A stretch of DNA of 64,000 nucleotides, taken from Patescibacteria group bacterium. GTDB taxonomy: Bacteria > Patescibacteriota > Microgenomatia > UBA8517. The stretch covers positions 558,001-622,000 of the forward strand of contig DASZQR010000010.1 of assembly GCA_035549555.1 (NCBI GenBank), read 5' to 3'. Position numbers and translations under genes: made by a program. The notes below the pieces were generated by a model. It saw only the letters and a list, made by a program, of their open reading frames with translations, was not told the origin of the DNA and ran no database searches. Positions 3,940 through 24,500 of this stretch are shown here, one piece after another; the stretch's first letter is position 1; every line of letters starts with the position of its first letter.

Positions 3940-3945
3940 ATTTTT

Positions 3946-4059
3946 TTAACCCTGTCTTTGTTTGTGCTTAGGATTTTTGCAAATCACATACAGAAATCCT
4001 TTACGTTTAACAATTTTACAATCTTTACACATTACTTTTATTGACGATTTAACTTTCAT
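3946..4059 (-). CDS. rpmJ: 50S ribosomal protein L36
   Basis: A 37-aa protein found by reading the gap between infA and rpsM. It begins [15 protein letters not shown] and ends NPKHKQRQG. The four zinc ligands of the classical L36 ribbon are present: Cys11, Cys14, Cys27 and His32. L36 binds 23S rRNA late in 50S assembly. A GGAAAATAT sequence precedes the ATG. The order infA-rpmJ-rpsM is the standard bacterial arrangement. Presence of all four metal ligands shows the zinc-dependent form rather than the zinc-free paralogue. Confidence 0.95.
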
Positions 4060-4071
4060 ATATTTTCCTTT

Positions 4072-5039: not shown

Positions 5040-5574
5040 TTTCAATTATTCTTTCCAAATCTTTTTGTATTGCATCAACTGTTCTTTCTCCATCAACTTC
5101 AACAACTTTAGTATCTTTTCTTAATTCATCAATTAAAGGCACAGTCTGGTCATTATAAAGTTTTAATCTTTCTTTTATAGATTCTTCTGTATCATCTTCG
5201 CGCTTTCGCAAACTTAATCTATTAAGTGTTGTCTCTTCACTGATATTCAAAACTAAAACAAGATCTATTTTTACTTTTTTATCAGAAAGCCATCCCTTTA
5301 CAAATTTATACTGTTCAAGCTGCCTTGGAAATCCATCAAAAAGAATATTGTCATAAACTTGTTTTTCATCCAAATATGCTTCAATATAAGCTACCAGCTC
5401 TTCGCTTGGGACCAATTTCCCTTCATCCATCATATTGCGAAGCACTTCATTATTTTCGGCTATCTGCCTTAGAAATTCTCCGCTCTCAAAATAAAAAAAA
5501 CCAAATTTTTCAACAAGTAATTTTGCTTGTGTTCCTTTTCCGCTTCCTTGAGGTCCAAGTATTACTATATTCAT
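5026..5574 (-). CDS. adk: adenylate kinase (short-LID form)
   Basis: Catalyses ATP + AMP = 2 ADP. The P-loop GPQGSGKGT is at residues 7-15, the AMP-binding segment with FESGEFLR follows, and DGFPRQLEQ (about residue 80) is the AMP-binding arginine motif. At 182 aa it is shorter than the roughly 214-aa bacterial enzyme: the LID region after LRKREDDTEESI is reduced and no zinc-binding cysteines are present. It sits between secY and map, its usual position. Confidence 0.95.
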   Translation of the reverse strand: MNIVILGPQGSGKGTQAKLLVEKFGFFYFESGEFLRQIAENNEVLRNMMDEGKLVPSEELVAYIEAYLDEKQVYDNILFDGFPRQLEQYKFVKGWLSDKKVKIDLVLVLNISEETTLNRLSLRKREDDTEESIKERLKLYNDQTVPLIDELRKDTKVVEVDGERTVDAIQKDLERIIENAKN

Positions 5575-5579
5575 AAAAT

Positions 5580-6872
5580 TTATTCTGCCACAAATCTCTC
5601 ATATTTCTTCATAGAAAGCTGCGCCTGAAGATCTCGAACCATTTCAAGAATTACTGAAACAACAATCAATACTCCAGTTCCTCCAATAACCAAATTGGAA
5701 ATTTGTAATGTTGATTGAAGTATTGATGGTAAGATTGCAATAAATCCCAAAAATACCGCTCCAGCAAGAGTAACTCTGTTTACCACATATCCTAAATATT
5801 TCTGAGTCTGCATTCCAGGCCTTTTCCCGGGAATAAAAGCACCATTTCGCTGTAATCTTTCAGTAACTTTTTCAGGATTAAAAACAACTGTCGCAGTATA
5901 AAAATAAGTAAACCCAACCACCAAAAGAAAATAAAACACATTGTAAAGAATTGTATTTGGGTTCATATAAACCAGAAGCTGCGTAAAAAACTTCGAGACA
6001 GCTCCATGTGCAATTCCTCCAGCAAATTGAGCAATCAAAGAAGGCGCCGATACAAGTGCAATTGCAAAAATTATTGGAATTACTCCAGCTTGGTTTAGTT
6101 GTAATGGAATATAAGACGCCTGCGCAATTGGAGAAGAGCCGTTATTTCGTCTTGCATATTTAATCGGAATGCGCCTAACAGCTTCAGATACATAGACAAC
6201 TAAAGTAATAATAAGAAGCGCAACTACTACAAATATTCCCACTTTTGTTAAGTCAGTTTTTGTAATTGTTCCAATTGAAGTTCCAAGTGCTACAGGAAGC
6301 CTTGAAATAATTCCTGCAAAAATAAGAAATGAAACTCCGTTTGTAACCCCGTATTCAGTAATAAGTTCCCCAAGCCAGACAGCAAACATTGTTCCAGCAA
6401 CCAAAGTTAAAATAAATGCAAGCAACTGTACTGGTCCCAAAGTCCCAATAATTCCTTGTCCTTTAAGAAGCAAATAAGCACCCATTCCCTGAAGCGCAGC
6501 CAAGGGTACAGTTAAAAATCTTGTGTATTGATTAATTTTATCTTGTCCATACTCTCCTTCTTCTTGTAATTCTTCAATTGATGGAATCACATATCCAAGA
6601 AGTTGCAAGATAATCGAGGCATTAATATAAGGGTTAAGTCCAAGCGCCATAATAGAAAAATTTGCAAGTGTTCCTCCAGAAAAAACATCAAGAAGAGATA
6701 AAAGCGGGCTTCCATTAAAAAGTTGTTGAAGTGAAGTTCTATCAATTCCTGCAACAGGAACATGAGCTATAAAACGAAATACAACCAGAAGTAGGGCTGT
6801 TATAAAAATTTTCTTTCTGACGACGTCAGACTTTGCGCACTTTACAAAAAAATCTGCAATAGACTTAAGCAT
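5580..6872 (-). CDS. secY: protein translocase subunit SecY
   Basis: SecY forms the protein-conducting channel in the cytoplasmic membrane. The 430-aa sequence has ten hydrophobic segments. The N-terminal [20 protein letters not shown] region, a plug region after TM1 ([23 protein letters not shown]), the cytoplasmic [10 protein letters not shown] loop and the [19 protein letters not shown] loop before the last helices are all characteristic. Length is normal. Its ATG lies within the last codons of rplO (8-base overlap). No secE or secG is in this window. Confidence 0.97.
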
Positions 6873-7287
6873 TTATTCGTTTAGCAACTGATTTAGACAT
6901 CGGTAATTCTATTTTAAGTTTCTTCTTGAGTTCTCCTTTACCCAAAATTTTGACCCCAAATCGTTTTGCATCTTTAATGTCTACTATTCCAGCTTTTGCA
7001 AGCGTTTCAATTGTTACAGTTTCTCCATCTTTCATTAAATTAAGCACTTCTAAATTAATAATTAATGGCTTATCGTTAGCTTTAAATTTGCTTCTTCCTC
7101 TCTGCATTGGAAGACGACGAAGCAATGATTTCTTTACTTTATATCCTTCAAAAAGCACATTGATCGTTCTTCTTGTTTTTTGTCCTTTTTGTCCGCGCCC
7201 TGCAGTATGAAATCCCTTTCCACTTCCCCCTCCACGTCCAACTCTTTTATGGCGAGGCTTTACTAATTTTTGCAAATCATTTTGCAT
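6865..7287 (-). CDS. rplO: 50S ribosomal protein L15
   Basis: L15 is a late 50S assembly protein. The N-terminus has the glycine-rich [25 protein letters not shown]-like segment typical of the family. The middle [13 protein letters not shown] and the C-terminal globular part ([17 protein letters not shown]) complete it. Length 140 aa is normal. It overlaps rpsE upstream and secY downstream. rpmD (L30), which lies between rpsE and rplO in most bacteria, is absent; rpsE and rplO overlap by 11 bases, leaving no room for it. Confidence 0.97.
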
Positions 7288-7789
7288 TTATGTTTTTCCT
7301 TTCTACAATATCACTTATTTTCTCAAGTGCCGAGATTGTCGCATATACATTACTAATTTTATTTTTTGTTCCCAAAATTTTTGCACTTGCGTCGCGCACT
7401 CCTGCGGCATCAAGTACAACTCGAATTGCTCCTCCTGCAATAATTCCGCTTCCTTGTGGTGCCGGCTTCAAAACTATTTTTGCTGCTCCATATTTCACAT
7501 TAACTTCATAGGCAACTGTTGTTCCGCGAAGCGGAACTACAATCAATTTACGTTTTGCTGCAGTTATAGCTTTTTGGACTGCACTACGCACGTCTTTTGC
7601 TTTTGCAAGTCCGACTCCAACTTTTCCTTTTTTATCTCCAACAACTACAAGAGCTGCAAATCTCATTTGGTTTCCGCCTTTTGTTTTCTTGGAAATTCTA
7701 TTTATTTGCACAACTGTCTCAGTAAATTCTTTTTCAGCCTGATAAAAATTATTATTTCTTCTATTGTTGTTTCGGTTATTGTTTTGCAT
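7277..7789 (-). CDS. rpsE: 30S ribosomal protein S5
   Basis: S5 lies at the 30S mRNA entry and helps set decoding fidelity. The double-stranded-RNA-binding-like N-domain (VVQINRISKKTKGGNQMRFAALVVVGD) and the C-domain pattern GSGIIAGGAIRVVLDAAGV-DASAKILG are diagnostic. The first 14 residues are an unusual Asn/Arg-rich stretch (MQNNNRNNNRRNNN), a low-complexity tail outside the conserved fold. 170 aa total. It is preceded by rplR with a 1-base gap and overlaps rplO. Confidence 0.97.
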   Translation of the reverse strand: MQNNNRNNNRRNNNFYQAEKEFTETVVQINRISKKTKGGNQMRFAALVVVGDKKGKVGVGLAKAKDVRSAVQKAITAAKRKLIVVPLRGTTVAYEVNVKYGAAKIVLKPAPQGSGIIAGGAIRVVLDAAGVRDASAKILGTKNKISNVYATISALEKISDIVERKNINAK

Positions 7790-7790
7790 A

Positions 7791-8060
7791 TTAAAATTCT
7801 AATCCTTTCGCACGAGCTGCATCAGCCAAAGCTTTAACTTTTCCATGATATCTATATTTGCGTCTGTCATATGTAATCTTTTTAGCTTTTGCCTTAATTG
7901 CTTTTTCTGCAACTTCCTCTCCAACTTTTACTGCATCAGTTCCTTTTGCTGCTGCAATTGTATGTCCTTTAATATCATCAATCACTTGAGCATAAATAAA
8001 TTTATTACTTCTAAATACACTAAGTCTAAATCTTTGTTCAGTTTTGTTAGTTTTTTTCAT
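7791..8060 (-). CDS. rplR: 50S ribosomal protein L18 (short)
   Basis: L18 carries 5S rRNA into the 50S subunit with L5. The [18 protein letters not shown] block at residues 12-29 and the C-terminal [25 protein letters not shown] block are clear. At 89 aa it is shorter than the usual 115-120 aa: the basic N-terminal tail is cut to about ten residues and the central segment before VGEEVAEKA is reduced. The ends are clean and the neighbours (rplF, rpsE) are standard, so this is a compact L18 rather than a broken gene. Confidence 0.95.
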
Positions 8061-8070
8061 AGTATTAAAT

Positions 8071-8622
8071 TTAAGCTGCTGTCTTTGCTGCCTGTTTTCC
8101 AGGTTTCAACTTCAAAACTTCTCCCAAATATCTTATTCCTTTTCCTTTGTATGGATCTGGTTCTTTTGCACGTCTTATATTTGCTGCAAGTTGTGTAACT
8201 GTATTAAGATCAATTCCTTCAACAGTAACAACATTTTTTTCTACTACAAATTTCACATTAGTTGGTGCAGTAAAAGTAACTGGGTGAGAAAATCCAATTG
8301 TCAAAACCAAATCATTTCCTCTTACTTCCGCGCGGTATCCTGTTCCTTGCAATTCAAGCTTTTTATTAAATCCATTAGTAACTCCCTCAATCATGTTAAC
8401 TACATGGCTTTTTGTAGTTCCAAGTATGCTTCTTCCAAATTTAGTTTCTGTCTTTTCTTTTGAACCAAAACTTAATTCATTTTCTTTCATAGAAACCTGA
8501 ACAGTTTCTGGAATTTCTCTTTCAAGATTTCCTTTTGCTCCGGTTACTTTAATCTTATTGGAATCCAATTGAATTTGAACTCCTGCTGGTATTGTTACTG
8601 GTCTTTTTGCAAATTTTGACAT
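8071..8622 (-). CDS. rplF: 50S ribosomal protein L6
   Basis: L6 sits near the factor-binding stalk base. Two tandem L6 folds are visible. The N-terminal repeat begins [15 protein letters not shown]; the C-terminal repeat has [10 protein letters not shown] and the signature [22 protein letters not shown]. Length 183 aa is normal. It lies between rpsH (1-base gap) and rplR in the standard spc order. Confidence 0.98.
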
Positions 8623-8623
8623 A

Positions 8624-9004
8624 TTACCAAATCTCCGCGATTACTTCTCCACCAACATTCTCTTTAATTGCTTTTTTATTTGAAATAATTCCTTTTGGTG
8701 TCGTTAAAATTAATATTGACGATCCTTTCTTTCTAAGTTTTAGTTCATCGATATTGCGATAAACGCGTAGTCCTGGTTTTGAAATAAGTGTAAGATCCAT
8801 CAAAACTGGTTTCTTATGAGAAATTGCAATTTTTGCTGTTAATTTTCCTTCATTTACAGAAACCTCGCTCAAAAATCCTTCAGTTTTTAAACATTCTGCA
8901 ATTGCTTTTACAAGCTTTGTCGAATTAACTGTTAAATCAGTGCGATCAGCTCTTGCTGCATTCTTTACTCTAATTAAAAAATCTCCAACTGTATAATTTA
9001 CCAT
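8624..9004 (-). CDS. rpsH: 30S ribosomal protein S8
   Basis: S8 binds the central domain of 16S rRNA and, in E. coli, represses the spc operon. The 126-aa protein begins MVNYTVGDFLIRVKNAARA, and ends with the conserved STPKG-type loop, here TTPKGIISNKKAIKENVGGEVIAEIW. I chose the internal ATG because MVNYTVGDF matches the family start; an upstream frame extension of 16 residues would overlap rpsN. It directly follows rpsN. Confidence 0.96.
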   Translation of the reverse strand: MVNYTVGDFLIRVKNAARADRTDLTVNSTKLVKAIAECLKTEGFLSEVSVNEGKLTAKIAISHKKPVLMDLTLISKPGLRVYRNIDELKLRKKGSSILILTTPKGIISNKKAIKENVGGEVIAEIW

Positions 9005-9005
9005 A

Positions 9006-9191
9006 TTACCAAGACGCCTTTCTAACTCCTGGAATTTCGCCTTTATTGGCAAGTTCCCTAAAACAAAGTCTGCAAATTCCGAATTTTCTCATATAACCAC
9101 GGCTTCGGCCACAAAGCCTACATCGGTTTCTGTATTGAACCTTGTACTTTAATTTTTTATGTTCTCTTACTTCTTTAGCTGTTGTTGCCAT
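9006..9191 (-). CDS. rpsN: 30S ribosomal protein S14, zinc type
   Basis: S14 is a small 30S-head protein. This 61-aa form has the type Z zinc ribbon C-R-L-C-G, then 12 residues, then C-R-L-C-F, and the [16 protein letters not shown] ending. I chose ATG giving MATTAKEV; an ATG 12 bases upstream would lie inside the double-hairpin element. The obvious Shine-Dalgarno (AAGGAG) lies 42 bases upstream inside the end of rplE. Only 6 of those 42 bases are outside the element, so start selection may depend on that structure. Confidence 0.96.
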
Positions 9192-9193
9192 AA

Positions 9194-9229
9194 TTGTAAT
9201 CAATTACAAGCAAATTCTTATTTGCTTAT
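9194..9229 (-). repeat. double-hairpin element, copy 2 (rplE-rpsN junction)
   Basis: Gene-sense order: ATAAGC, an extended first hairpin (AAGCAAAT / ATTTGCTT, loop AAGA), then a second hairpin TTGTAAT / ATTACAA with a 2-base loop. The rplE stop codon TAA lies in the first loop, giving the C-terminus I-S-K-stop. The rpsN ATG follows 2 bases after the element and its SD lies 4 bases before it. Confidence 0.8.
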
Positions 9230-9778
9230 ATTTCTCCTTTCAAGTTTTTCAAACGGCATTCCCATTAATTCCAATAATTTTCTCGATTGCTCTACATTTT
9301 TTACATTTGTTACAAAAGTGATTTCCATTCCTCGTGGATTTGTAACTTTTGCCAAATCAATTTCAGGAAAAACTGTATGCTCTACAATTCCCAAAGTATA
9401 ATTTCCTGCCTGATCAAAACTTTTCAAAGGCACTCCTCTAAAATCTCTTAGTCTTGGAAGCACTATTTTAACCAATTTTTCGTAAAAATCATACATTCGC
9501 TTTCCGCGAAGTGTCACAACCATTCCCACATTCATTCCAAGTCTCAAATTAAATCCTGCAATCGAAACTCTTGCTTTAGTAATTTTTACTTTTTGCCCAG
9601 TAATTGTTGCTAAATCTTCTGCAATTTGTGTTGCAATTTCTTTACTCTTCAAAGCTTCTCCAGTTCCGCAGTTCACAACAATTTTAGTCAATTTTGGAAT
9701 TGCCATCACATTTTTAATAGCAAATTCTTTAACTAACTCATCTTTAATTGTTTTTTTATAATCTTCTTGTAAACTCAT
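9218..9778 (-). CDS. rplE: 50S ribosomal protein L5
   Basis: L5 binds 5S rRNA in the central protuberance and contacts S13 and P-site tRNA. The 186-aa product has IPKLTKIVVNCGTGEA near the N-terminus, the KARVSIAGFNLRLGMNVGMVVTLRGKRMYDF core, and the RDFRGV and EIDLAKVTNPRGMEITFVT blocks. The start ATG overlaps the rplX stop (ATGA); a longer frame would run into rplX. The last three codons (I-S-K) and the stop are contributed by a double-hairpin element. Confidence 0.97.
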   Translation of the reverse strand: MSLQEDYKKTIKDELVKEFAIKNVMAIPKLTKIVVNCGTGEALKSKEIATQIAEDLATITGQKVKITKARVSIAGFNLRLGMNVGMVVTLRGKRMYDFYEKLVKIVLPRLRDFRGVPLKSFDQAGNYTLGIVEHTVFPEIDLAKVTNPRGMEITFVTNVKNVEQSRKLLELMGMPFEKLERRNISK

Positions 9779-10086
9779 ATAGTTTTCCCGCACTTTCTAC
9801 AAATTCGAACCTTCTTACCATCAACAATCTTTACTCCAACTCTTGTAATTTTTTTACAATTTGGGCAAATTAAAGCAATTTTTCCAAGTGTTAAAGGTCT
9901 GGAAAGTTCATAAACTCCACCTTTTCCGTCAGCTGTAAGCTGCGCTTTAACATGTTTCTTGTAAATATTTACTCCAGGAACTAAGACAGCAGATTTTTTT
10001 GGCATTACTTGTTCAATTTTTCCCGTCTTTCCTTTATCTTTTCCAGCTGTAATTTTAACTTCGTCTCCTTTTTTAAATTTAAACAT
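9775..10086 (-). CDS. rplX: 50S ribosomal protein L24
   Basis: L24 initiates 50S assembly at the exit-tunnel side. The KOW motif FKKGDEVKITAGKDKGKTGKI opens the 103-aa protein. The C-terminal extension has ICPNCKKITRVG and VRICRKCGKTI, giving a CxxC-CxxC zinc ribbon as in many bacterial L24 proteins. It is directly adjacent to rplN and overlaps rplE by 4 bases. Confidence 0.97.
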   Translation of the reverse strand: MFKFKKGDEVKITAGKDKGKTGKIEQVMPKKSAVLVPGVNIYKKHVKAQLTADGKGGVYELSRPLTLGKIALICPNCKKITRVGVKIVDGKKVRICRKCGKTI

Positions 10087-10452
10087 TTAAATAACCTCCC
10101 TTGCTAAAGATGCAATTTTTGTATATCCAGCTTCTTTAACTTCTCTTGCAATAGGCCCCAAAATTCTAGTCCCTCTTGGTAATCCGTCTTTATCAATAAC
10201 AACCCCTGCATTATCATCAAATCGTACATAAGTCCCATCAGCTCTTCTTGTTTCTTTGTGTGTTCGTACAATCACAACATTTACTTTTTCCTGATCAAGA
10301 ACCACTCCGGCAGAATCAGCTCCATGGACAACACATTTCACAACTTGTCCTAAATGAGCTTTCTTTCCAAGTCTTCCAGGAACTCCCATTACCATTAATT
10401 TTTTAGCACCGCTATTGTCAGCTGGATTTAAAACTGTTCTTAGATATATCAT
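10087..10452 (-). CDS. rplN: 50S ribosomal protein L14
   Basis: L14 is at the subunit interface and forms an intersubunit bridge. The start MIYLRTVLNPADNSGAKKLM, the VVIVRTHKE-RRADGTYVRFDDNAGV block and the terminal EVKEAGYTKIASLAREVI are textbook. 121 aa, normal length. Its ATG overlaps the rpsQ stop by 4 bases, and rplX follows immediately. Confidence 0.98.
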   Translation of the reverse strand: MIYLRTVLNPADNSGAKKLMVMGVPGRLGKKAHLGQVVKCVVHGADSAGVVLDQEKVNVVIVRTHKETRRADGTYVRFDDNAGVVIDKDGLPRGTRILGPIAREVKEAGYTKIASLAREVI

Positions 10453-10679
10453 TTCTTACCCTCCACATAAATTTCCCACTTTTTTGTCTTGCTATGTGGT
10501 TTACTCGCTATAAAATTCACAACATCCCCAACATTTACTCCAATTTCATCATGAACTTGGAAAGTTCGTGATCTTTTAATTTTCTTGTCATATATTGGAT
10601 GCGTTACAAAACGTTCAACTTCAATAGTTGCCGTCTTTGCATTCTTAGTTGCTACTACTTTTCCTGTAAATATTTTCAT
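10449..10679 (-). CDS. rpsQ: 30S ribosomal protein S17
   Basis: S17 is an OB-fold primary 16S rRNA binder. The 76-aa sequence has the FTGKVVATKNAKTATIEVERFVTHPIYDKKI pattern in its first half and the HDEIGVNVGDVVNF block typical of the family. It lies between rpmC and rplN as usual. The lysine-rich end (KTKKWEIYVEGKK) takes the place of the common RPLSKTKRW motif. Confidence 0.97.
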   Translation of the reverse strand: MKIFTGKVVATKNAKTATIEVERFVTHPIYDKKIKRSRTFQVHDEIGVNVGDVVNFIASKPHSKTKKWEIYVEGKK

Positions 10680-10682
10680 ACT

Positions 10683-10892
10683 TTATTTTTTCTTTACCTC
10701 CTTCATCTCTTTTGCAATTGTTAATAATTGTGCAATTTCTTTTCTCATATTTCTAGTTTTCTTTAAATTCTTTTCTTTTCCTGCATACATTTTTCCTGTT
10801 AAATTAATAAGTTCCATTTTTGCGCTCCTAACCATTTTCAATAATTCGCTTTTTTCTTTTGTTCTCAAATCTTTTAATTCTTTTGCTTTCAT
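10683..10892 (-). CDS. rpmC: 50S ribosomal protein L29
   Basis: L29 lies at the nascent-peptide exit and helps dock trigger factor and SRP. The 69-aa all-helical protein begins MKAKELKDLRTKEKSELLKM and has the R-x-I-A-Q-L-L-T-I pattern late in the chain. I chose the ATG preceded by GGGAGAA at 12 bases; a frame extension of 8 residues upstream would overlap rplP. The order rplP-rpmC-rpsQ is standard. Confidence 0.95.
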   Translation of the reverse strand: MKAKELKDLRTKEKSELLKMVRSAKMELINLTGKMYAGKEKNLKKTRNMRKEIAQLLTIAKEMKEVKKK

Positions 10893-10896
10893 ATCT

Positions 10897-11310
10897 TTAA
10901 AGTTCTCCCTTCGCAATAATTCTTGATTTAAAAGGCATTTTATAAGTTGCGCCTCTTAAAGCTTTGCGTGCTGTTAATTCATCAACTCCTGCAACTTCCA
11001 AAATCATTCTTCCTGGTCTTACAACCATAACATACCTGTCAATCTCTCCTTTTCCGCTTCCCATACGTTGTCCTGCAGCGCGTGCAGTAACTGGCTTATC
11101 AGGAAAGACTCTTAACCATACTCTTCCTTTTCTCTTCATATCTCCTGTTACAGTGCGCCTTACTGCTTCCATCTGTGCTGCACTCATCCAAGAATGTTCT
11201 AATGCTTTAATTCCAAATTCTCCAAAAGCAAGTGTCGATCCTCTTGAGGATAATCCTCTTCTTCTTCCTCTAAATGCTTTTCGATATTTACTTCTTTTTG
11301 GCTGTAACAT
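10897..11310 (-). CDS. rplP: 50S ribosomal protein L16
   Basis: L16 lies next to the A site and is needed late in 50S maturation. MLQPKRSKYRKAFRGRRRGL opens it, and GEFGIKALEHSWMSAAQMEA, RVFPDKPVTARAAGQRMGSGKG and the ARKALRGATYKMPFKSRI segments follow. 137 aa, normal length. A strong GGAGG lies in the end of rpsC, 30 bases before the ATG. Twenty-six of those bases belong to a double-hairpin element that ends immediately before the ATG. Confidence 0.98.
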   Translation of the reverse strand: MLQPKRSKYRKAFRGRRRGLSSRGSTLAFGEFGIKALEHSWMSAAQMEAVRRTVTGDMKRKGRVWLRVFPDKPVTARAAGQRMGSGKGEIDRYVMVVRPGRMILEVAGVDELTARKALRGATYKMPFKSRIIAKGEL

Positions 11311-11336
11311 TTATGTTTACACAAGCTTTCGCTTAT
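11311..11336 (-). repeat. double-hairpin element, copy 3 (rpsC-rplP junction)
   Basis: Gene-sense order: ATAAGC-GAAA-GC, then hairpin TTGTG / CATAA with loop TAAA. The TAA of ATAAGC is the rpsC stop. GGAGG lies 4 bases before the element and the rplP ATG directly follows it, so the only unfolded spacing between SD and ATG is 4 bases. Confidence 0.8.
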
Positions 11337-11983
11337 TTTTCCTCCTTATAAATCCAAACCTTAACTCCTACATATCCTCTTTTCAAAAGCGCTGGCATTT
11401 CTGCATAATCAATTTCTTTTCTTAATGTTTGAGTTGGGACGCTTCCTACATGATAAGCTTCAGTACGTCCGATATCAGCTCCATTAACACGTCCTGCAAA
11501 AACTATTTTTACTCCCTTAGCTCCAGATTGCATTACTTTTTCCATCGCTTTTGTAGCAACTCTTCTTGATGGCATACGGCGTTCAAGATCTGAAATAACT
11601 CTGCCAGCTACTAAATAAGCGCTCAAATCTGGATTTTTGATTTCATTTACATGTAAATCAATTTTCGTTTGTACTGCTTTTCCGCCCCTTAATGTTCTCA
11701 TCAAAGCAACAACTTGCTTTTTAATCTCTTCAATTCCGCTTCCGCCTCGTCCGATAACAACTCCAGGTCTTGCTACATAAAGAGTTATAACAATTGCCTT
11801 TGGCAATCTTTCAATTTCAACGGTTTCTATTCCAGCAAGCTTCAATTTTTCCATTAACATTTCGCGTAGTTTTACATCCTCAACCAAAAAGTTCTTATAA
11901 TCAGTTCCCTCATCAAACCATCTTGATTTCCAGGATATAAATCTTCCTGTTCTAAATCCTATTGGATTAACTTTCTGTCCCAT
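11333..11983 (-). CDS. rpsC: 30S ribosomal protein S3
   Basis: S3 is at the mRNA entry of the 30S head and has helicase activity with S4 and S5. MGQKVNPIGFRTG opens the 216-aa product. The KH-domain GRGGSGIEEIK pattern is at about residues 80-90, and the C-terminal domain includes RVNGADIGRTEAY and the YAEMPALLKRGYVGVKVWIY ending. Length is normal. It lies 1 base after rplV. Its stop codon is the TAA of a double-hairpin element. Confidence 0.98.
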   Translation of the reverse strand: MGQKVNPIGFRTGRFISWKSRWFDEGTDYKNFLVEDVKLREMLMEKLKLAGIETVEIERLPKAIVITLYVARPGVVIGRGGSGIEEIKKQVVALMRTLRGGKAVQTKIDLHVNEIKNPDLSAYLVAGRVISDLERRMPSRRVATKAMEKVMQSGAKGVKIVFAGRVNGADIGRTEAYHVGSVPTQTLRKEIDYAEMPALLKRGYVGVKVWIYKEEK

Positions 11984-11984
11984 T

Positions 11985-12401
11985 TTATTTTTTTCCTTTC
12001 TTTACTGTTTTCTTAACTTCTTTCTTTGGCTCTTCAACTTTTTTCTCTTCCAATTTCTTAACTTCAACTGGCTTTGTTTGCAACACGACTCGAATATGGC
12101 TCATGCGTTTCATAATCGGATGATATCGTCCGCGAGGAGCTGCCATACCTCGCTTAAGTGTTGGCCCTTGTCCAATTTGTATCTCTTTAAAAACCAATTC
12201 CTCAACATTTGCTCCCTGCATTCGTGCATTGGCAATTGCTGTCTTTATAGTTTTTTGTACAGGCTCGCTTGCTCTTTTATTTACATAAAGCAAGACTTCA
12301 ACAGCTTGGGTTGGTTTCATCTTTTTAACTGCATCAACTACTATCCTAATTTTCTTAGGACTCATTCTTAAAAATTTTTGTGTTGCTATATATTCTGCCA
12401 T
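11985..12401 (-). CDS. rplV: 50S ribosomal protein L22
   Basis: L22 lines the peptide exit tunnel. The core has RMSPKKIRIVVDAVK near residue 12, the long beta-hairpin region with RGMAAPRGRYHPIMKRMSHI at about residues 80-100, and VVLQTKP. The last 25 residues are a charged Lys/Glu tail (KKLEEKKVEEPKKEVKK region) beyond the usual end, of unknown role. 138 aa. Between rpsS and rpsC as usual. Confidence 0.97.
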   Translation of the reverse strand: MAEYIATQKFLRMSPKKIRIVVDAVKKMKPTQAVEVLLYVNKRASEPVQKTIKTAIANARMQGANVEELVFKEIQIGQGPTLKRGMAAPRGRYHPIMKRMSHIRVVLQTKPVEVKKLEEKKVEEPKKEVKKTVKKGKK

Positions 12402-12409
12402 ATTTCTCC

Positions 12410-12691
12410 TTATGTCTTATCCATTGTTCTCTTCACAATTTGTCCATGTCCATGGAATGTACGTGTTGGTGAAAATTCACCAAGGCGATGTCCTACCATA
12501 TCTTCGCTTATAAATACTTCAATAAAAATATGACCATTATGTACTTGGAAATACTTTCCAACAAATGCTGGTGGGATTTGGCTATCACGGCTCCAAGTCT
12601 TAATTGCATTTCCTTTTGTTCCCATACCCTTGTCGACCTTCTTTAAAAGTCTATCGTCTACGTATGGTCCTTTTTTACTACTTCTGCTCAT
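12410..12691 (-). CDS. rpsS: 30S ribosomal protein S19
   Basis: S19 pairs with S13 in the 30S head. [41 protein letters not shown] and the [17 protein letters not shown] motif are diagnostic. 93 aa, normal length. It follows rplB by 1 base and precedes rplV, the conserved S10-operon order. Confidence 0.98.
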
Positions 12692-12692
12692 A

Positions 12693-13460
12693 TTAATGAT
12701 GTTTTCCTAACTTTCGTCCTGAAACAACAAGTTTATCAGAATATTTACCATGTCGTCTTGTTTTTCCAACAGCTGGCTTTCCCCAAGGGGTCTTTGGATA
12801 TTTAAGTCCAACTCCGCTTCTTCCTTCTCCCCCTCCGTGTGGATGAGAATGAGGATCTTGAGCAACTCCTCTTACTGTCGGTCGTATTCCTCGTCTTATG
12901 TTAATTCCAGCTTTTCGAATTCTTTGGTTTGCAACCTCAATATTTCCAACCTGTCCAATGCTCGCCCATGACTGCGGATTAAATCTTTTAATTTCCCCGC
13001 TTGGCATTTTAACCAAGACATAATAATCTTCTTTTCCTTGTAAAATCGCAACTGATCCTGCTCCTCTTACAATCTGTCCGCCTTTATTTGGACTTATTTC
13101 AATATTGTGTATTTGTGTACCAATAATGATTTTAGAAAGGGCTGTTGCATTTCCTATTTCAAGAGATGCATTTTCGCTAGCCATTACTTTCTGCCCAATT
13201 TTAAGGCCATTAGGTGCAATTATATATCTTTTATCTCCGTCTGTATAATGGACAAGTGCTATCCTTGCATTTCGATTTGGATCAACCTCAATTGCAACTA
13301 CAGTTCCCTGGACCCCTTCTTTAATATGCCTGTTAAAATCAATTTCTCTGAAAAATCTTTTGTTTCGTCCTCCTTGATGGCGAACAGTAACTTTTCCTTT
13401 AGATCTTCCGGAATGTTTCTTTAATACGAAGCGGCGCTTCGATAAACTCCCTATTATCAT
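12693..13460 (-). CDS. rplB: 50S ribosomal protein L2 (N-terminally shortened)
   Basis: L2 is required for subunit association and sits near the peptidyl-transferase centre. The core [15 protein letters not shown], the conserved N-x-G-N-I-E-type block and the C-terminal [21 protein letters not shown] with its catalytic-region histidine are intact. The protein is 255 aa instead of about 275: the N-terminal part with the TSPGRR-type motif is missing and the chain starts at [19 protein letters not shown]. The ATG overlaps the rplW stop (ATGA), so the short start appears genuine. Confidence 0.96.
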
Positions 13461-13780
13461 TTTGTACCTTCTTTCTTTGTTTTTGTTTTAGCTTTCTTTG
13501 TTACTTTCTTTTCCTCTTCAAAAAAATCAAGCTTTTGTCCTTCTTTCAAAACTACAATTGCTTTCTTGGCTGCTTTTACTTTCTGCTCTTGTCCTCTCAT
13601 ATTCCTGTGTTTGCGAGCTTTATAATTAACGGTTTTGATGTCAACTACTTCAACCTTAAAATTCTTAGCAATCAAATTTTTAATTTCTGTTTTGGTTAAT
13701 GCTACAGGCATCCAAAAAGTATAAATATTATTTTTAGATAACTTCATTGATTTTTCTGTCATTATTGGCATTATTTTCAT
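13457..13780 (-). CDS. rplW: 50S ribosomal protein L23
   Basis: L23 is at the exit tunnel and docks trigger factor and SRP. MKIMPIMTEKSMKLSKNNIYTFWM and the KNFKVEVVDIKTVNYKARKHRN block identify it; the last 30 residues are a Lys/Thr/Glu-rich tail. 107 aa. Its start codon follows a double-hairpin element by 2 bases. The plausible SD (GAAAGG) lies before that element, in the end of rplD. Confidence 0.95.
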   Translation of the reverse strand: MKIMPIMTEKSMKLSKNNIYTFWMPVALTKTEIKNLIAKNFKVEVVDIKTVNYKARKHRNMRGQEQKVKAAKKAIVVLKEGQKLDFFEEEKKVTKKAKTKTKKEGTK

Positions 13781-13782
13781 GA

Positions 13783-13816
13783 TGTAATCGTCACAAGCAA
13801 ATTCTTATTTGCTTAT
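13783..13816 (-). repeat. double-hairpin element, copy 4 (rplD-rplW junction)
   Basis: Gene-sense order: ATAAGC, the extended first hairpin AAGCAAAT / ATTTGCTT with loop AAGA, then TGTGA / TTACA with loop CGA. The first 25 bases match copy 2 exactly. The rplD stop TAA lies in the first loop, again producing an I-S-K-stop C-terminus. The SD is 7 bases before and the rplW ATG 2 bases after the element. Confidence 0.8.
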
Positions 13817-14437
13817 TTGTTTTCCTTTCTTTTCTTCTTTTCCAAAAATTGCTTTGTCCAAAACTATATTTCCTCCAAAATAAATATCATATGCATTAAT
13901 GCTTGGAAAAACATTTACTCGTGCTTTTTCTATATTTCTTAAAAACTTTTCATTTTTAAAGTTATCTTTTGCAATTACAAAAGTAACCATCTTTGTATTT
14001 TTTCCTAAAACTTTTTCAATAAAATTATTTGCGTCTTTTGTCTTAGCAAAATTCATATCACTTACTATCACTCTTTTTTCTTTAACAGCCATTGTCATCG
14101 TTACAGCAATTGCTTTTCGCTTCAAAGCTGTCGATAAAGTTAATTCTCTTTTTACTGGTCGAGGTCCTAAAGCGACTCCTCCGCCAACAAATACAGGTGC
14201 TCTTCTTGATCCATGTCTTGCTCCTCCAGTTCCTTTCTGGCTGTAAAGTTTTTTACCAGTTCTTAAAACTTCAGCTCGAGTTTTTGCTTTACGAAGTCCA
14301 ATATGATTTCGGTCATCGTAAACTCGAATTGCTTGTGCAAGTAAACTTTCGTTTGCTTCAGCTTCCCATTCTTTTGGCAAGTTTACCTGTGTTGTCCCTT
14401 TAATTCCTTTTGCTGAATATGAATCTACTTTAAGCAT
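13805..14437 (-). CDS. rplD: 50S ribosomal protein L4
   Basis: L4 lines the exit tunnel; in gamma-proteobacteria it also regulates its own operon. The 210-aa protein has LLAQAIRVYDDRNHIGLRKAKTRAEV, the tunnel-loop region KLYSQKGTGGARHGSRRAPVFVGGG and the C-terminal NAYDIYFGG. I chose the ATG giving MLKVDSYSA, 8 bases inside the end of rplC with AAAGGAAC upstream. The last residues I-S-K and the stop come from a double-hairpin element. Confidence 0.96.
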   Translation of the reverse strand: MLKVDSYSAKGIKGTTQVNLPKEWEAEANESLLAQAIRVYDDRNHIGLRKAKTRAEVLRTGKKLYSQKGTGGARHGSRRAPVFVGGGVALGPRPVKRELTLSTALKRKAIAVTMTMAVKEKRVIVSDMNFAKTKDANNFIEKVLGKNTKMVTFVIAKDNFKNEKFLRNIEKARVNVFPSINAYDIYFGGNIVLDKAIFGKEEKKGKQISK

Positions 14438-15098
14438 TTGCTTGTTCCTTTCTTTCTCCAATTCTTTCAAGAATTACTAAACCTCCGACTGTTCCTGGAA
14501 TTGCTCCGCTTACAAGTATTTCATTCTTTTCTGCATCAACTGAAACTATTTTGAGTCCTTTAACTTTTATTTGTTCTACTCCCATGTGTCCTGCCATGTG
14601 TTTGCCTTTATAAACTCTTCCTGGAGTTGTTCCTTGTCCAATTGATCCTGGTGCTCTCCAACGGTCTGATTGTCCATGAGTCTTGCTTCCTCCTCTAAAG
14701 TGCCACCTTTTAACTCCTCCAGCAAACCCTTTTCCCTTAGAAACTCCAGTAACGCTAACCTTATCTCCAGAAACAAAAATGTCGGAAGCTTTTATTTCAT
14801 TTCCGACTTTTTCCGTAGGTTCTTCTTGAGTTCTTATTTCTTTAATAAATCTTGGTAAATATTTTGGAGTTTCTTTTGCGTCTTTTGTTTTGAGAAGATG
14901 GCCTTTCATTGGTTTGGTAATATTCTTTGCTTTCTTGTGTCCTACACCAAGTTGGACTGACCAGTAGCCGTCACGGTCTTGTGTTTTGACTTCAGTCACA
15001 ACACAATTTTCAATTGCAACTTTAGTCACAGGAACTCTTACTCCTTCGTTAAAAGTAGCTCCCATTTCTTTTTTAATTCCAAGGACTTTATTTATCAT
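14430..15098 (-). CDS. rplC: 50S ribosomal protein L3
   Basis: L3 nucleates 50S assembly and reaches the peptidyl-transferase centre. MINKVLGIKKEMGATF begins the 222-aa chain; the signature KGFAGGVKRWHFRGGSKTHG and PGSIGQGTTPGRVYKGKHMAGHMG follow. I chose the ATG matching the family start; a TTG 36 bases upstream is unlikely. No Shine-Dalgarno is visible. It is the first gene of the large array because rpsJ, the usual first gene, is with tuf. A 125-base structured leader precedes it. Confidence 0.96.
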   Translation of the reverse strand: MINKVLGIKKEMGATFNEGVRVPVTKVAIENCVVTEVKTQDRDGYWSVQLGVGHKKAKNITKPMKGHLLKTKDAKETPKYLPRFIKEIRTQEEPTEKVGNEIKASDIFVSGDKVSVTGVSKGKGFAGGVKRWHFRGGSKTHGQSDRWRAPGSIGQGTTPGRVYKGKHMAGHMGVEQIKVKGLKIVSVDAEKNEILVSGAIPGTVGGLVILERIGERKEQANA

Positions 15099-15135
15099 AT
15101 TAGTCGTAACGCTAACATGCCTAGCTAGAGACAAT

Positions 15136-15158
15136 AAAAAAGGTGTCTCGTCGACACC
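15136..15158 (-). terminator. attenuator-like intrinsic terminator in the rplC leader
   Basis: On the minus strand GGTGTC pairs with GACACC around a GACGA loop and is followed by six T residues, the form of a Rho-independent terminator. It lies about 65 bases after the predicted start site and 37 bases before the rplC ATG, with no gene upstream to terminate, so it looks like a leader attenuator. Confidence 0.7.
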
Positions 15159-15235
15159 CAGTTACTGGTTTCAAATCAAGACTACCTCGAGGTTAGTTAG
15201 GCGGTTCCCCTCCTCATTTATTAAGTGAAATTATA
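15158..15235 (-). promoter_or_regulatory. structured 5' leader of the ribosomal array
   Basis: Between the -10 box and the terminator the minus strand has two further hairpins: ACTA-(A)-CC / GG-TAGT with loop TCGA (15181-15197), and CCAG / CTGG with loop TAA (15158-15168). The second shares one G with the 5' arm of the terminator. A possible six-codon reading frame (M-R-R-G-T-A) opens the leader. It is a candidate ribosomal-protein-responsive attenuator; no known leader family was recognised. Confidence 0.5.
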
Positions 15236-15258
15236 TCAAACTGAAGGCAAGCTTGCAA
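15230..15258 (-). promoter_or_regulatory. promoter of the rplC-to-rpsI array
   Basis: TTGCAA and TATAAT separated by 17 bases on the minus strand, predicting transcription start near 15223 and a leader of about 125 bases. Confidence 0.65.
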
Positions 15259-15340
15259 GCAAGGCTAAATGCTATGCGTTACAAAAAAATAAAATACTCT
15301 ATTTAAACCTATAATAATAGAATTTAAGTTCGATTTATTG

Positions 15341-15346
15341 TATAAT
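15341..15346 (+). promoter_or_regulatory. -10 box for a leaderless transcript
   Basis: TATAAT ends 6 bases before the ATG of the downstream zinc-ribbon gene, so transcription should begin at or next to the start codon. No convincing -35 box is seen. Confidence 0.6.
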
Positions 15347-15352
15347 CATCAA

Positions 15353-15772
15353 ATGTCTTCAGAAAAACTAGACAACACATCTTTCTGTCAAATATGCGGG
15401 GCATTTCTCCCAGCAGGAAGCGTCTGTCCAGATTGCAATAAAGTTGTAACTACCATGACAAAACCAAAAGAGGTTTTACCTTTTTGTGGCATAAAAGATA
15501 CAAACAGTCCGGATGAATGCATATTAAGAGATTGTTGTAGATGTGGTAAATGCTGGAAATGTACTGCCAAAGAGTGGATAGAAGGACCATGCCCTCACTG
15601 TGGAGCAGTTGGTTTTGCAGGAATTAGACCAGAGAAATCAGAACAAAGCAAGTCTGGCTTTGGAAATCTAATTTCGGACCTAAATAAAGAACAATACACT
15701 CAAGAAATAGTCAATTTTCCAATCATTAAAGAAAAAATACTTAATAAAATTAAGAAGGATTTTAAGATATAA
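15353..15772 (+). CDS. orphan multi-zinc-ribbon protein
   Basis: I do not recognise this 139-aa protein. It has two CxxC pairs near residues 12-29 (CQICG and CPDCN), a cysteine-dense block after residue 55 (C-R-C-G-K-C-W-K-C) and a final CPHCG, enough for two or three zinc ribbons. The last third is helical and charged (INFPIIKEKILNKIKKDFKI-like end). No catalytic motif is visible; nucleic-acid or protein binding is a guess. It is a lone plus-strand gene wedged between rpsJ and rplC, splitting the usual S10 operon, and appears to be transcribed without a leader. Confidence 0.8.
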   Translation: MSSEKLDNTSFCQICGAFLPAGSVCPDCNKVVTTMTKPKEVLPFCGIKDTNSPDECILRDCCRCGKCWKCTAKEWIEGPCPHCGAVGFAGIRPEKSEQSKSGFGNLISDLNKEQYTQEIVNFPIIKEKILNKIKKDFKI

Positions 15773-15778
15773 GCAATC

Positions 15779-16090
15779 TTACATCTTAATCTCAATGGAG
15801 ACACCTGCTGGAAGATCTAAATTAGATAATGAATCAATTGTACGATCAGATGGATCCACAATGTCAATTAATCTTTTATGAACTAACATTTCATAATGAT
15901 CTTGATGATTTTTAATTCCTCTTGAGGTTGATGGCACAATAGAAACTATACTTCTTTTTGTAGGTAAGGGGATTGGTCCAACGATTTTTGCGCCGGTTGC
16001 AATAGCAGTCTCAAGTATTTTACTTGCTGCTTCATCTAGAACGCGAGCATCATATGCTTTTAATTTGACTCTAAGTCTTCCAACTGGCAT
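15779..16090 (-). CDS. rpsJ: 30S ribosomal protein S10
   Basis: S10 is in the 30S head and, with NusB, acts in transcription antitermination. The 103-aa protein has VKLKAYDARVLDEAA, the VGPIPLPTKRSIVSIVPS loop and the HKRLIDIVDPSDRTIDSLSNLDLPAGVSIEIKM ending. It follows tuf by 17 bases, so the str-type end tuf-rpsJ is kept. The rest of the S10 operon is separated from it by the convergent orphan gene and a new promoter. Confidence 0.98.
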   Translation of the reverse strand: MPVGRLRVKLKAYDARVLDEAASKILETAIATGAKIVGPIPLPTKRSIVSIVPSTSRGIKNHQDHYEMLVHKRLIDIVDPSDRTIDSLSNLDLPAGVSIEIKM

Positions 16091-17418: not shown

Positions 17419-17919
17419 TCAACTTAATTTTCTTGGTGAAACCCAGTTATTAACAAACCCTCTGCCTTTTGTAGTCAAACGATATTCTTTAGCAGAAGGA
17501 ATACCGGAAAGTATAACTCCACTATCCTTACCTGAAGGAACTAATAATCCATCTCTCAATAAATACATTAATAATATATCCAATCCTCCAACAACCCAAA
17601 CAAATTCATCATTTGGACTTTCAGCAAAAAGTGTAAGTATTCTTTTCTCTAGGTCGCCATATCTATTATTAATTACCGAAAGATTAGCTTTATATCGAAG
17701 CATAGATTTCCTATCAATTTCATGTTTTTTATCATATCTATCATGACAATTTGGACAAAGAGCAATCAAATTTTCAAATCTATGCTCTTTCACTTTAAAC
17801 CATGGATCTATATGAGCTATTTCTACGGGAGTTCTCTGACAAGTAGGAATCGCACATCTGTGACCAGCTTCAACTAGAACTTCACGTTCTAATTCCTTAG
17901 GAATTGAAGATCTTTTCAT
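17419..17919 (-). CDS. HNH endonuclease-domain protein with winged-helix-like tail
   Basis: The N-terminal half is an HNH domain: C-A-I-P-T-C, then AHIDPWFKVKEHRFENLIALC with the catalytic His and Asn, and CPNCHDRYD as the second zinc pair and last His. Residues from about 90 to 166 look like a winged helix (LLRDGLLVPSG, YRLTTKGRGFVNNW). Family members include restriction, homing and phage nucleases, so DNA cleavage is likely but the target is unknown. It ends the rpoBC-to-fusA gene run, just before the tuf promoter. Its position inside a translation-gene cluster is unusual and may reflect insertion. Confidence 0.75.
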   Translation of the reverse strand: MKRSSIPKELEREVLVEAGHRCAIPTCQRTPVEIAHIDPWFKVKEHRFENLIALCPNCHDRYDKKHEIDRKSMLRYKANLSVINNRYGDLEKRILTLFAESPNDEFVWVVGGLDILLMYLLRDGLLVPSGKDSGVILSGIPSAKEYRLTTKGRGFVNNWVSPRKLS

Positions 17920-17945: not shown

Positions 17946-18218
17946 TTAGAAATCTTCTTCAGAAAGACCTATAAATGAAGTTTTAACTGGTACGGCTGCC
18001 GTACCTCCGCCAAGATAAAAACCACTACCACCCTGATTCGCAAACCTCACCTTAATCATGGGATTACCTGGTTGTTTTTTTGAATCTTTACGATCCACAA
18101 CCAAGACAACATAATTCATTGTCAATTGATCAACACTTCTTGGAACAATAGTAACTTCTTCGCCAATTTTGCGACTATCCAATCTAAATCCGACTCCTCT
18201 TCTAGAAATATTTTCCAT
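17946..18218 (-). CDS. orphan 90-aa protein after fusA
   Basis: I do not recognise it. The sequence is mainly predicted beta strand (GEEVTIVPRSVDQ, NYVVLVVDRKD, MIKVRFAN) with a glycine-rich loop (QGGSGFYLGGGTAAVP) near the C-terminus; there is no signal peptide, membrane segment or cysteine. It lies 2 bases after fusA and before the HNH gene on the same strand, so it is probably cotranscribed with the translation genes. Confidence 0.7.
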   Translation of the reverse strand: MENISRRGVGFRLDSRKIGEEVTIVPRSVDQLTMNYVVLVVDRKDSKKQPGNPMIKVRFANQGGSGFYLGGGTAAVPVKTSFIGLSEEDF

Positions 18219-21579: not shown

Positions 21580-24500
21580 TTATACAGCAGCAGGCTCAGC
21601 TTGTCCATGAAGAGCCGCTCTCTTTGGATCAATTGGAATTAGGCGGCCAATAATAACATTCTCTTTAAGTCCAAGTAAGCGATCTTTGCTTCCTTCTAGT
21701 GCTGACTCGGCCAAAACATCAGTTGTCTGTTCGAAAGATGCGCTAGATAGCCAGCTGTTTGTGTACAAAGCTCTCTTTGTGACTCCAAGTATAATTTGTC
21801 TTGCAGTTGCTGCTTCTCCGCCTGATGCGATAACTTTTTCAACTTCTTCTTCAAATGTTGATTTATCAGTAAGCTCTTCTGGCAAGAATCTGCTGTCTCC
21901 GCTTGTCAAAATGCGGACTGTATCACACATCTTGCGGACAATGATTTCAAAATGGCGATCATTAATTGAAATTCCCTGTGATTCATAAACTGCCTGTAAT
22001 TCATTTACCAAATATTCTTGTGCTGCTCCAAGTCCTCGTACTTGTAATATTTCTTTAATATCAAGGTATCCGCTAGCTAGTTGTGTTCCTGCATCGATAA
22101 GTTGTCCATCCTCAACACTAATCTTGTTTGTCTTTGCGATAATATATTCTCGCTCTTCTTTTGGTTTGGTATTAACACTTGTGACTTTAACAACATTCCC
22201 GTCTTCGCTCTCTTTGATAGATACTTTTCCAGCTATTTCAGAAATTGGCGATACTGTTTTTGGAATACGAGATTCAAATAACTCTTCAACTCTTGGAAGT
22301 CCTTGTGTAACGTCAGCTCCAACAACTCCTCCGCTATGTTTGGTTCTAAGTGTAAGCTGAGTTCCAGGTTCTCCAATTGATTGTGCCGCAATAACTCCAA
22401 TTGGCATTCCAAGTTCTACAACCTGTTTATTTGAAAGGTCCCATCCATAACACTTCTGGCAAACTCCAAATCTTGTCTTACATGTAAGAGGGGAACGAAC
22501 TACAAATTCTGTAACATTTGCATCATCTGCCAGTTCTTTTGCTCGCTTTTCATCAATAAGTTCTCCGTTTGTATCAAATCTTCCAAAAATTCTCTTGTAG
22601 AAACTTCCTCCTCGTACTGATTTTTTAATAAGAATTCCGTCTTTTGTTCCGCAGTCTTCTTCACGAATTAATACATCATGAGTTACATCAACTAATCGAC
22701 GTGTAAGATATCCTGCATCAGCTGTTTTCAAAGCTGTATCAGTAAGTCCTTTACGAGATCCGCGTCCTGATGCAACATATTCAAAAACTGAAAGCCCTTC
22801 TCTAAAGTTGCTTTTGACAGGAAGTTCAACGATTTTTCCAAGCGGATCAACGACCAAACCTCTCATTCCACCAAGCTGCTTAATCTGGTCACGGGAAGTG
22901 CGTCCCACTTTAGCATCAATAACTGTGCGAATTGGTGAATCAGCAGGTATTACATTCCAGGTTTTGTCAGCAATTTCTTCAGTTGTTTCAATCCAGATTT
23001 GTTGAATGCTTCTTTTCTTTTCTTCGTTTGTAATAAGACCTTGATGGAAACTTTTTTCAATTTCGTCGACTTTTTTATCTGCTTCCTTAATAATTTTTGC
23101 TTTTCCTTCAAATATTGCAGCATCCGACACCGCAAATGAAAGTCCTGAAATTGTTCCTCCAACAAATCCAAGGTTCTTAATATCATCAATAAGTTTTACA
23201 AGTCTCTCTTGAGATACTTTTGTATAAGCTTCAGTGACTAAATCTTTAATAATTCCAGAAGAAACGTTTTCGTTTACAAATCTAAATCCTTCTGGAAGTA
23301 TTTCATTAAATAAAATGCGTCCAACAGTTGTTTCATTTACTTCATTATCAACTTTGACCTTGATTTGTTGTCTTAAAGCTACTTTTCCAATTTGATAAGC
23401 AAATATTGCTTCAGCTTTGTCAGCAAAAATTGTTTCAGAAGCTTTCATTCTTGTATCTAAACTTGTGAAATAATAAACTCCAAGCGCCATTTCCTTTGAA
23501 GCGGGCGTTGCAACAGGCGATCCGTCAGATGTCTTAAGTAAATTCTTATCAGACATCATAAGAGTCTTAGCTTCTTCGATTGCTTTCTTAGAAAGTGGGA
23601 CATGTACTGCCATTTGATCTCCGTCAAAGTCAGCTCCAAACCCAGAACATACTGCTGGATGAAGTCTGATAGCGCTTCCTTCAATTAAAACTGGGTAAAA
23701 TGCCAAAATTCCAAGTTTATGAAGTGTTGGTGCACGATTAAGTAACACTGGATGATCTTTTGTAATTTCTTCCAAAATATCAAACACTTCTGGTGGTCGG
23801 CGTTCAAGTAAATTCTTTGCAGATTTCACATTAGGTGCAATTTCTCGCTTAATAACTTCTCGAAGTACAAATGGCTTAAACATTTCCAGCGCCATTTCCT
23901 TTGGAAGTCCACATTGATTCAAATTAAGTTCAGGCCCAACAATAATAACTGAACGTCCGGAGTAATCCACACGCTTACCCAAAAGATTTGCTCTAAATCT
24001 TCCTTGCTTTCCTTTAAGCATGTCAGAAAGTGATCGAAGTGCAAGTCTTCCTCGTCCACGTCGCATAGCTTTTCGCTGAGATGCATCAATTAAAGAGTCA
24101 ACAGCTTCCTGCAACATTCTTTTTTCATTCCTTAAAATAATATCTGGTGCACCAAGGCCAATAAGATGCTTAAGTCTGTTATTTCTATTTATTACGCGTC
24201 TATATAAATCATTCAAGTCAGAAGTTGCAAATCTTCCTCCAGCAAGTTGGACCATTGGTCGTAAATCTGGTGGAAGTATTGGGATTACTTTCAAAATAAC
24301 GCTTGTTGGGCTTACTTTTGCCTCACGAAGTCCGTCAATAAGCTTAAGTCTTTTTGCAACTTTCAAATATCTTGCACCTTTTCCTTGCAATCCTTCAAGT
24401 TCTGCTCGCAAACTCTTTGAAAGTTCATCCAAATTAAGTTTGCTTAAGGCTATAAGAAGAGCTTCTGCTCCCATTTTTACTTCAAGAAAATCAGATACAT

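Follow-up and report, generated by a model that had tools for sequence, protein, structure and literature searches.

How is the synthesis of ribosomal proteins controlled in candidate-phyla bacteria with genomes of about 1 Mb? To our knowledge, ribosome-production control in these organisms is largely unknown. The question is raised here by a window of 64,000 nucleotides (positions 558,001 to 622,000 of contig DASZQR010000010.1, assembly GCA_035549555.1) from the 1.01-Mb genome of a Patescibacteria group bacterium. A sequence-only reading of this window had proposed that an attenuator-like leader upstream of rplC controls the ribosomal protein array. We compared the leader with those of relatives and modeled its folding.

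Genes and signals around the leader

The genes that frame the leader are given below in window coordinates.

14430 to 15098, minus strand: rplC (L3), the first gene of the array (Pfam PF00297)
429 to 15098, minus strand: ribosomal protein array from rplC to rpsI, downstream of the leader (Pfam on 30 ORFs, each of which is the expected family)
15779 to 16090, minus strand: rpsJ (S10), 680 nt upstream of rplC (Pfam PF00338)
15338 to 15772, plus strand: zinc-ribbon-like ORF between rpsJ and the rplC promoter (no Pfam match)

The sequence-only reading had placed rpsJ elsewhere and had assumed that no gene lies upstream on this strand. Both statements need correction, as rpsJ is found on the same strand upstream of the leader and is itself directly preceded, again on that strand, by an rpoBC fusion, rpsL, rpsG, fusA, and tuf. 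The interval from rpsJ to the promoter holds only the zinc-ribbon-like ORF on the opposite strand; among all collected loci, only L003 encodes a relative of it (43% over 82 aa). The rpoB-rpoC fusion is a single 2342-aa ORF (21580-28608, minus strand) in which Pfam identifies RNA polymerase beta and beta' domains. An HNH endonuclease ORF (17419-17919, minus strand; Pfam) sits between fusA and tuf and adjoins a 90-aa ORF (17946-18218) without a Pfam match.

Two signals delimit the leader.

15230 to 15258, minus strand: promoter, with TTGCAA (15258-15253), a 17-nt spacer, and TATAAT (15235-15230) with an extended -10 TG; the -10 position matches that of relatives
15136 to 15159, minus strand: intrinsic terminator GGGUGUC-GACGA-GACACC followed by UUUUUU (U tract, 15141-15136), from the window sequence

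The terminator stem GGTGTC/GACACC spans 15158-15142 on the minus strand and is followed by TTTTTT. Transcription is inferred to start at about 15224 (minus strand), and the rplC ATG at 15098 follows about 125 nt downstream. The order described in the sequence-only reading, a TTGCAA-17-TATAAT promoter, a 125-base leader, a six-T terminator, and then rplC, is thus present on the minus strand. Within this region alone, neither promoter-like sites (4 versus 6.2 in shuffles) nor terminator-like sites (2 versus 1.7) exceed chance, and the fold of the leader (z = -1.28) is unremarkable by itself.

Conservation of promoter and terminator in relatives

In what follows, f1 is the family of the window, f2, f3, and so on are other families, and G000 is the genome of the window. 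G053, an order-mate of G000, matches “Candidatus Blackburnbacteria” RIFCSPHIGHO2_12_FULL_44_25 of the Microgenomates group and is identical to it over the stretches compared. The rplC gene is present in 112 of 115 relatives; 110 of the 112 loci were taken (G001 and G013, with fragmentary rplC, were left out), and the rplC start was located in 109 (L091, with no locatable start, was left out). Leaders were called by a fixed script, which accepted a -10 box matching at 5 or more of its 6 positions and located 40 to 105 nt before a terminator that itself lies at most 330 nt from rplC. A held-out set consisted of 81 further genomes of the class that had not been used before (including G142, locus L201); these are the best-scoring new ones among the matches listed and not a random draw.

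A -10 box and a terminator were found upstream of rplC in 76 of the 109 class loci, leaving 33 without them by the script rule, and in 42 of the 81 held-out loci, leaving 39. In f1, the promoter and terminator are present in 41 of the 46 located loci, and a short upstream ORF (uORF) lies between them in 40. The same leader finder returned 0 such leaders for 45 other window ORFs of at least 150 aa. The sequence-only reading would have been refuted had relatives shown no conserved structure upstream of rplC, and the f1 loci do show one. The window-only counts would suit the reading that there is no regulatory leader and that the hairpin arose by chance or ends an earlier transcript. However, the conservation in f1 and the empty control genes already refute that reading, to which we assign next to no probability. 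It is the comparison with relatives, and not the window alone, that marks the leader as real on sequence grounds.

Two members of one f1 genus (g27), L009 and L012, keep the promoter and an AUG, and a terminator hairpin was not found upstream of rplC in them. The idea that the leader is a repeated element was rejected, as a search with the leader pattern in 50 family genomes gave a single match in each of 16, and 14 of these matches are at rplC. The two matches away from rplC are G014:C3 and G008:C1. At G014:C3, only 8 nt separate a TATAAT from the start of a 225-aa ORF (L289, 545-1222, plus strand) that looks methyltransferase-like by eye, suggesting that full genes in the family of L289 may also begin almost without a leader.

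A short uORF is the shared element

The leader of the window begins with the following ORF.

15197 to 15217, minus strand: uORF AUG AGG AGG GGA ACC GCC UAA (MRRGTA*), six codons and a stop, with an internal GGAGG; its start lies 12 nt after the -10

This start follows the inferred transcript start by only about 6 nt, which makes the uORF nearly leaderless. With a uORF defined as an AUG or GUG ORF of 5 to 16 codons including the stop, starting 5 to 19 nt after the -10, one is present in 68 of the 76 leaders versus 11.6 expected from dinucleotide shuffles and in 32 of the 42 held-out leaders versus 7.1 expected. The only f1 leader that lacks it has a run of N over the site. A further leader type, f5, has it in 17 of 19 cases versus 3.2 expected (with the -10 and length criteria relaxed). 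Of 37 families, 23 include one or more leaders with a uORF.

The uORFs start 5 to 16 nt downstream of the -10, with AUG (69) or GUG (31), and end in UAA (46), UAG (43), or UGA (11). Of 100 uORFs, 51 contain GGAGG or GAGGUG versus 4.5 expected, most commonly with 14 nt between GGAGG and the stop (29 of 51); the 16S rRNA of the window's genome ends in ATCACCTCCTTT, the usual anti-Shine-Dalgarno sequence. Several features follow the reading frame. Of 28 f1 cases, 22 have the start in frame with the stop-like motif that precedes CC(A/U)C. Of the 15 f19 leaders with GAGG, 13 have a start-to-GAGG distance of either 15 or 18 nt, which shows that the frame was kept through 3-nt indels. The peptides are mostly M-E-V-V/I-... 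in f1, M-x3/4-E-V-x-x-A-T in f19, MSKLL... in three f31 leaders, and often ...SG in f5; they differ between families, with no conservation across them. The uORF is well supported by these comparisons as a conserved feature of the leaders, and we predict that it is translated.

A predicted antiterminator matched to each terminator

Folding adds three elements to the leader of the window.

15189 to 15215, minus strand: hairpin P1, GAGGAGG (15215-15209) against CCUC (15192-15189), across the uORF (MFE fold; found in relatives with shifting register)
15177 to 15188, minus strand: predicted antiterminator 5' strand, GAGGUAGUCUUG (MFE of the free leader)
15142 to 15150, minus strand: predicted antiterminator 3' strand, CGAGACACC, which is the terminator loop plus 3' arm (MFE and own-versus-other match tests)

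We calculated with ViennaRNA the predicted probability of the terminator, P(T), which refers to equilibrium rather than cotranscriptional folding. In free leaders, the preferred structure is often predicted to pair the terminator 5' arm, the loop, and part of the 3' arm with a strand that lies at the uORF end or beyond it. For the leader of the window (L002), P(T) is 0.00 when free and 0.97 to 0.98 when the segment from uORF to terminator is shuffled. Over 40 f1 leaders, the mean P(T) of 0.43 for the free leader compares with 0.80 when the 5' part is shuffled (Wilcoxon P = 5e-7) and with 0.87 when all upstream sequence is shuffled (P = 2e-7), both tests ignoring relatedness. In the held-out leaders, a free P(T) of 0.73 is weakly below the 0.91 obtained with the 5' part shuffled (one-sided P = 0.07) and below the 0.92 with all upstream sequence shuffled (P = 0.015).

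Terminator loops vary between leaders, and the upstream strands vary accordingly. The duplex energy between the post-uORF segment and its own loop beats that with exchanged loops in f1 (0/20,000 permutations) and in the other families (8/20,000), relatedness being ignored; in f19, this test is weak (749/20,000 for the uORF and 8,914/20,000 for the post-stop segment). Exchanging whole terminators raises P(T) from 0.44 to 0.77 in f1 (0/20,000 permutations as low), from 0.56 to 0.70 in f19 (238/20,000), and from 0.83 to 0.90 in other families (441/20,000), again with relatedness ignored. L033, a near copy of L032, was left out of the duplex-energy test (for f1 and for all leaders) and of the terminator exchange. 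By showing that each upstream segment fits the terminator of its own leader, these thermodynamic and covariation-type tests indicate an evolved, leader-specific antiterminator that would be mutually exclusive with the intrinsic terminator.

The position of the antiterminator strand relative to the uORF differs among leaders. In f19, the end of the uORF including the stop (CUACAUAG) serves as the predicted strand and complements the terminator loop (CUAUGUGG), and changes on the two sides match: a UAA stop in L288 (f31) goes with the loop UUAUGUAG, and GCA in place of ACA in L260 goes with the loop UGUGCAG. In an f1 group (L006, L013, L015, L030, and L090), the strand begins at or near the stop codon, while in the leader of the window and in those of the GUGGAGGUG...UAGCCAC type, it begins about 8 to 15 nt past the stop. 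RNAalifold on the f1 alignment recovered only P1 and the terminator. A pairing of GGAGG with CCUCC in the terminator loop was considered and dropped because the loop varies (UCC, UCU, UUC, UGC, UGA, and UAG) independently of GGAGG.

These matches bear on the reading that the terminator is fixed, partial, and unregulated and that the uORF protects or stabilizes the nascent transcript against Rho or RNases. It has a precedent in the rplJL leader peptide of Bacillus subtilis, which raises expression about 2-fold in a Rho-dependent manner (PMC4538822). However, an antiterminator matched to its own terminator loop is unexpected for a fixed terminator, and the uORF here lies upstream of the terminator, whereas that of rplJL lies downstream. 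We consider protection improbable. A conserved attenuator at rplC is well supported by the sequence comparisons, and both the conservation in 41 of 46 f1 loci and the leader-specific match of antiterminator and terminator bear out the earlier proposal of an attenuator-like leader controlling the array, to which the uORF and the antiterminator are new additions.

Predicted effect of a ribosome on the uORF

A ribosome at the uORF stop was modeled as a mask on the RNA up to stop+10; the toeprint edge of a ribosome lies at about stop+10. Masking any competing strand tends to increase P(T), a caveat that applies to all values below. With this mask, mean P(T) in f1 rises from 0.43 to 0.68. The effect is clear for L006, L013, L015, L030, and L090, in which P(T) goes from at most 0.33 when free to at least 0.91 with the ribosome at the stop. 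In f19, mean P(T) for the free leader is 0.59; a ribosome at the start lowers it to 0.31, and one at the stop raises it to 0.94. Because the f19 antiterminator 5' strand consists of the uORF end and stop, a ribosome that finishes the uORF should release the terminator. Leaders outside f1 and f19 have a mean P(T) of 0.81 when free and 0.93 with the ribosome at the stop, and most of them are predicted to terminate in every state.

The leader of the window responds later: P(T) stays at or below 0.05 until the mask reaches stop+16, where it jumps from 0.04 to 0.98. Since the toeprint edge falls near stop+10, a ribosome standing at the stop may not suffice there. In three f1 leaders (L019, L021, and L099), the mask does not reach the antiterminator, and P(T) drops as the ribosome approaches the stop. 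A coupling in which translation leads to termination is plausible from these folds, although the leader of the window agrees with it less well than do those of some families.

The low f19 value with a ribosome at the start implies that early stalling favors the antiterminator, which would also suit an amino acid or tRNA attenuator of the trp/his kind, in which stalling at specific leader-peptide codons turns the array on. Many f1 peptides, with the forms M-E-V-V-R-Q/H-x or M-D-K-V-R-H, lean the same way. However, no codon run or amino acid is common to the families (compare MSKLLIxSxxT, MLVGPKLxN, M(S/G)RENCQxxAPVP, and ..SG), and the peptide of the window, MRRGTA, holds just two Arg codons, so that such a mechanism appears very improbable.

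Other leader types and ribosomal protein binding

Some families have further leader elements. (i) In f5 (L064, L068, L078, L080, and 15 held-out loci), a conserved domain, CAGUAGAUCGC...GAUACGGCGA...AGCGAGAUACUG, lies between the uORF and the terminator and is a candidate new RNA element; it gave no Rfam match in the five loci tested, and those pieces of the motif that were tried are absent from Escherichia coli rRNA and from the window's own 23S rRNA. (ii) In L076, L083, and L087, and further upstream in L103, a hairpin with CUGAAGRCAUCUAAGG, which is similar to the 23S rRNA around E. coli nt 2745, is found directly before a U run; it is possibly a terminator that binds a ribosomal protein. 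(iii) Leaders of f10 and f41 (e.g., L082, L241, L211, and L223) have a conserved CCAAAAGUCUCGG after the uORF that is complementary to the terminator 3' arm CCGAGGU.

The first two types are relevant to an autogenous attenuator, in which leader binding by one of the array's own products (L3, L4, L6, S8, or another) favors the terminator, with the uORF being secondary or only structural. Autogenous control is the usual mode for ribosomal protein operons (PMC10931766 and, for B. subtilis rplJL, PMC4538822). The L076, L083, and L087 motif is like 23S CUGAAAGCAUCUAAG (E. coli 2745, present also in the window's own 23S rRNA), and the f5 leaders have their long conserved extra domain beside the uORF. 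Against this, the f1 leaders have no long conserved noncoding motif beyond the uORF/P1, the antiterminator, and the terminator; the 23S-like candidate site was found only in leaders of other families and not in f1; Rfam searches gave no family at the window leader up to E = 5 and no match to the leader in 16 other loci; and the element conserved across 23 families is the uORF. The suggestion of the sequence-only reading that the leader may sense L3, L4, or S8 finds no backing in the window leader, where no ribosomal protein site was found and the conserved feature is the short uORF. We regard autogenous control of this array as unlikely.

Proposed mechanism

We favor a ribosome-mediated attenuator of the rplC array, in which translation of the uORF to its stop would terminate transcription of the array, and assign it a probability of about 0.55. 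Sequence comparison shows the uORF, the terminator, and the leader-specific antiterminator, and the direction, translation meaning termination, is proposed from folding. Transcription would begin a few nucleotides upstream of the short, nearly leaderless uORF, and the nascent RNA would fold in one of two ways, either as the antiterminator (the strand at or just past the uORF end, paired with the loop and 3' arm of the terminator) or as the terminator. (i) With few ribosomes available, or with a ribosome stalled early, the antiterminator strand would remain free and the array would be on. (ii) When a ribosome reaches the uORF stop, it would occupy or crowd the antiterminator strand, the terminator would form, and the array would be off. 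The net result would be negative feedback of translation activity on ribosomal protein synthesis. This suggests that the cell gauges its own translation activity to set its output of ribosome parts.

A broader version is put forward more tentatively: throughout the Microgenomates, the main array may be governed by a translation gauge rather than by a ribosomal protein repressor. The gauge would be a mini-ORF, nearly leaderless and with a Shine-Dalgarno-like sequence inside it, and translating it would stop the array from being transcribed, so that working ribosomes would feed back on ribosome synthesis. One arrangement is common to at least 23 families despite their differing sequences. If the proposal is true, a uORF switch before the S10-spc-alpha genes is a solution other than autogenous ribosomal protein binding, and the question of what ribosome feedback reads, translation capacity or free ribosomal proteins, becomes directly testable with a DNA of about 130 nt.

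Comparison with known systems

A literature search, with most subscription journals and preprints outside its coverage, found no uORF upstream of rplC in candidate phyla. Eckert and Weinberg (PMC7247131) describe 20 ribosomal protein leaders; an L4 leader of Archaeoglobi is located upstream of rplC, and the excerpts available list none for candidate phyla. For hisS, leader peptides are described in a premature-terminator survey (PMC2965389), as are rpsL leaders.

In E. coli, attenuation by L4 stops transcription prematurely at a terminator in the leader of the L3-L4-L23-L2 gene series (PMC10931766). The rplC leader resembles this S10 leader (L4/NusA) in that the same gene series stands behind a leader terminator. 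Unlike the S10 leader, it precedes rplC, with rpsJ upstream of the leader; it has a uORF; and no L4 site or Rfam match was found in it (E up to 5; Rfam may not include the S10 leader). Autogenous attenuators of the rplJL and L20 kinds likewise have a terminator in the leader of a ribosomal protein operon. In B. subtilis rplJL, termination is set by the L10(L12)4 complex, and a leader peptide downstream of the terminator blocks Rho and raises expression (PMC4538822). Both leaders combine an antiterminator and a terminator with a leader peptide in a ribosomal protein operon, but the uORF of the rplC leader stands before the terminator. A uORF as a monitor of ribosome availability, the translation of which leads to premature termination, has been proposed for a DUF1127 gene of Sinorhizobium meliloti; that attenuator is presumed to be Rho dependent, is not at ribosomal protein genes, and is without such an antiterminator hairpin.

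The trp, his, and ilv attenuators and the uORF attenuators of antibiotic resistance genes share with the rplC leader a short uORF at the transcript start and a mutually exclusive antiterminator and intrinsic terminator. In the resistance attenuators, efficient translation leads to the terminator (PMC12218461). Unlike all of these, the rplC leader precedes a ribosomal protein array and is without a regulatory codon run, and its uORF is nearly leaderless, has an internal Shine-Dalgarno-like GGAGG, and encodes a peptide that varies by family.
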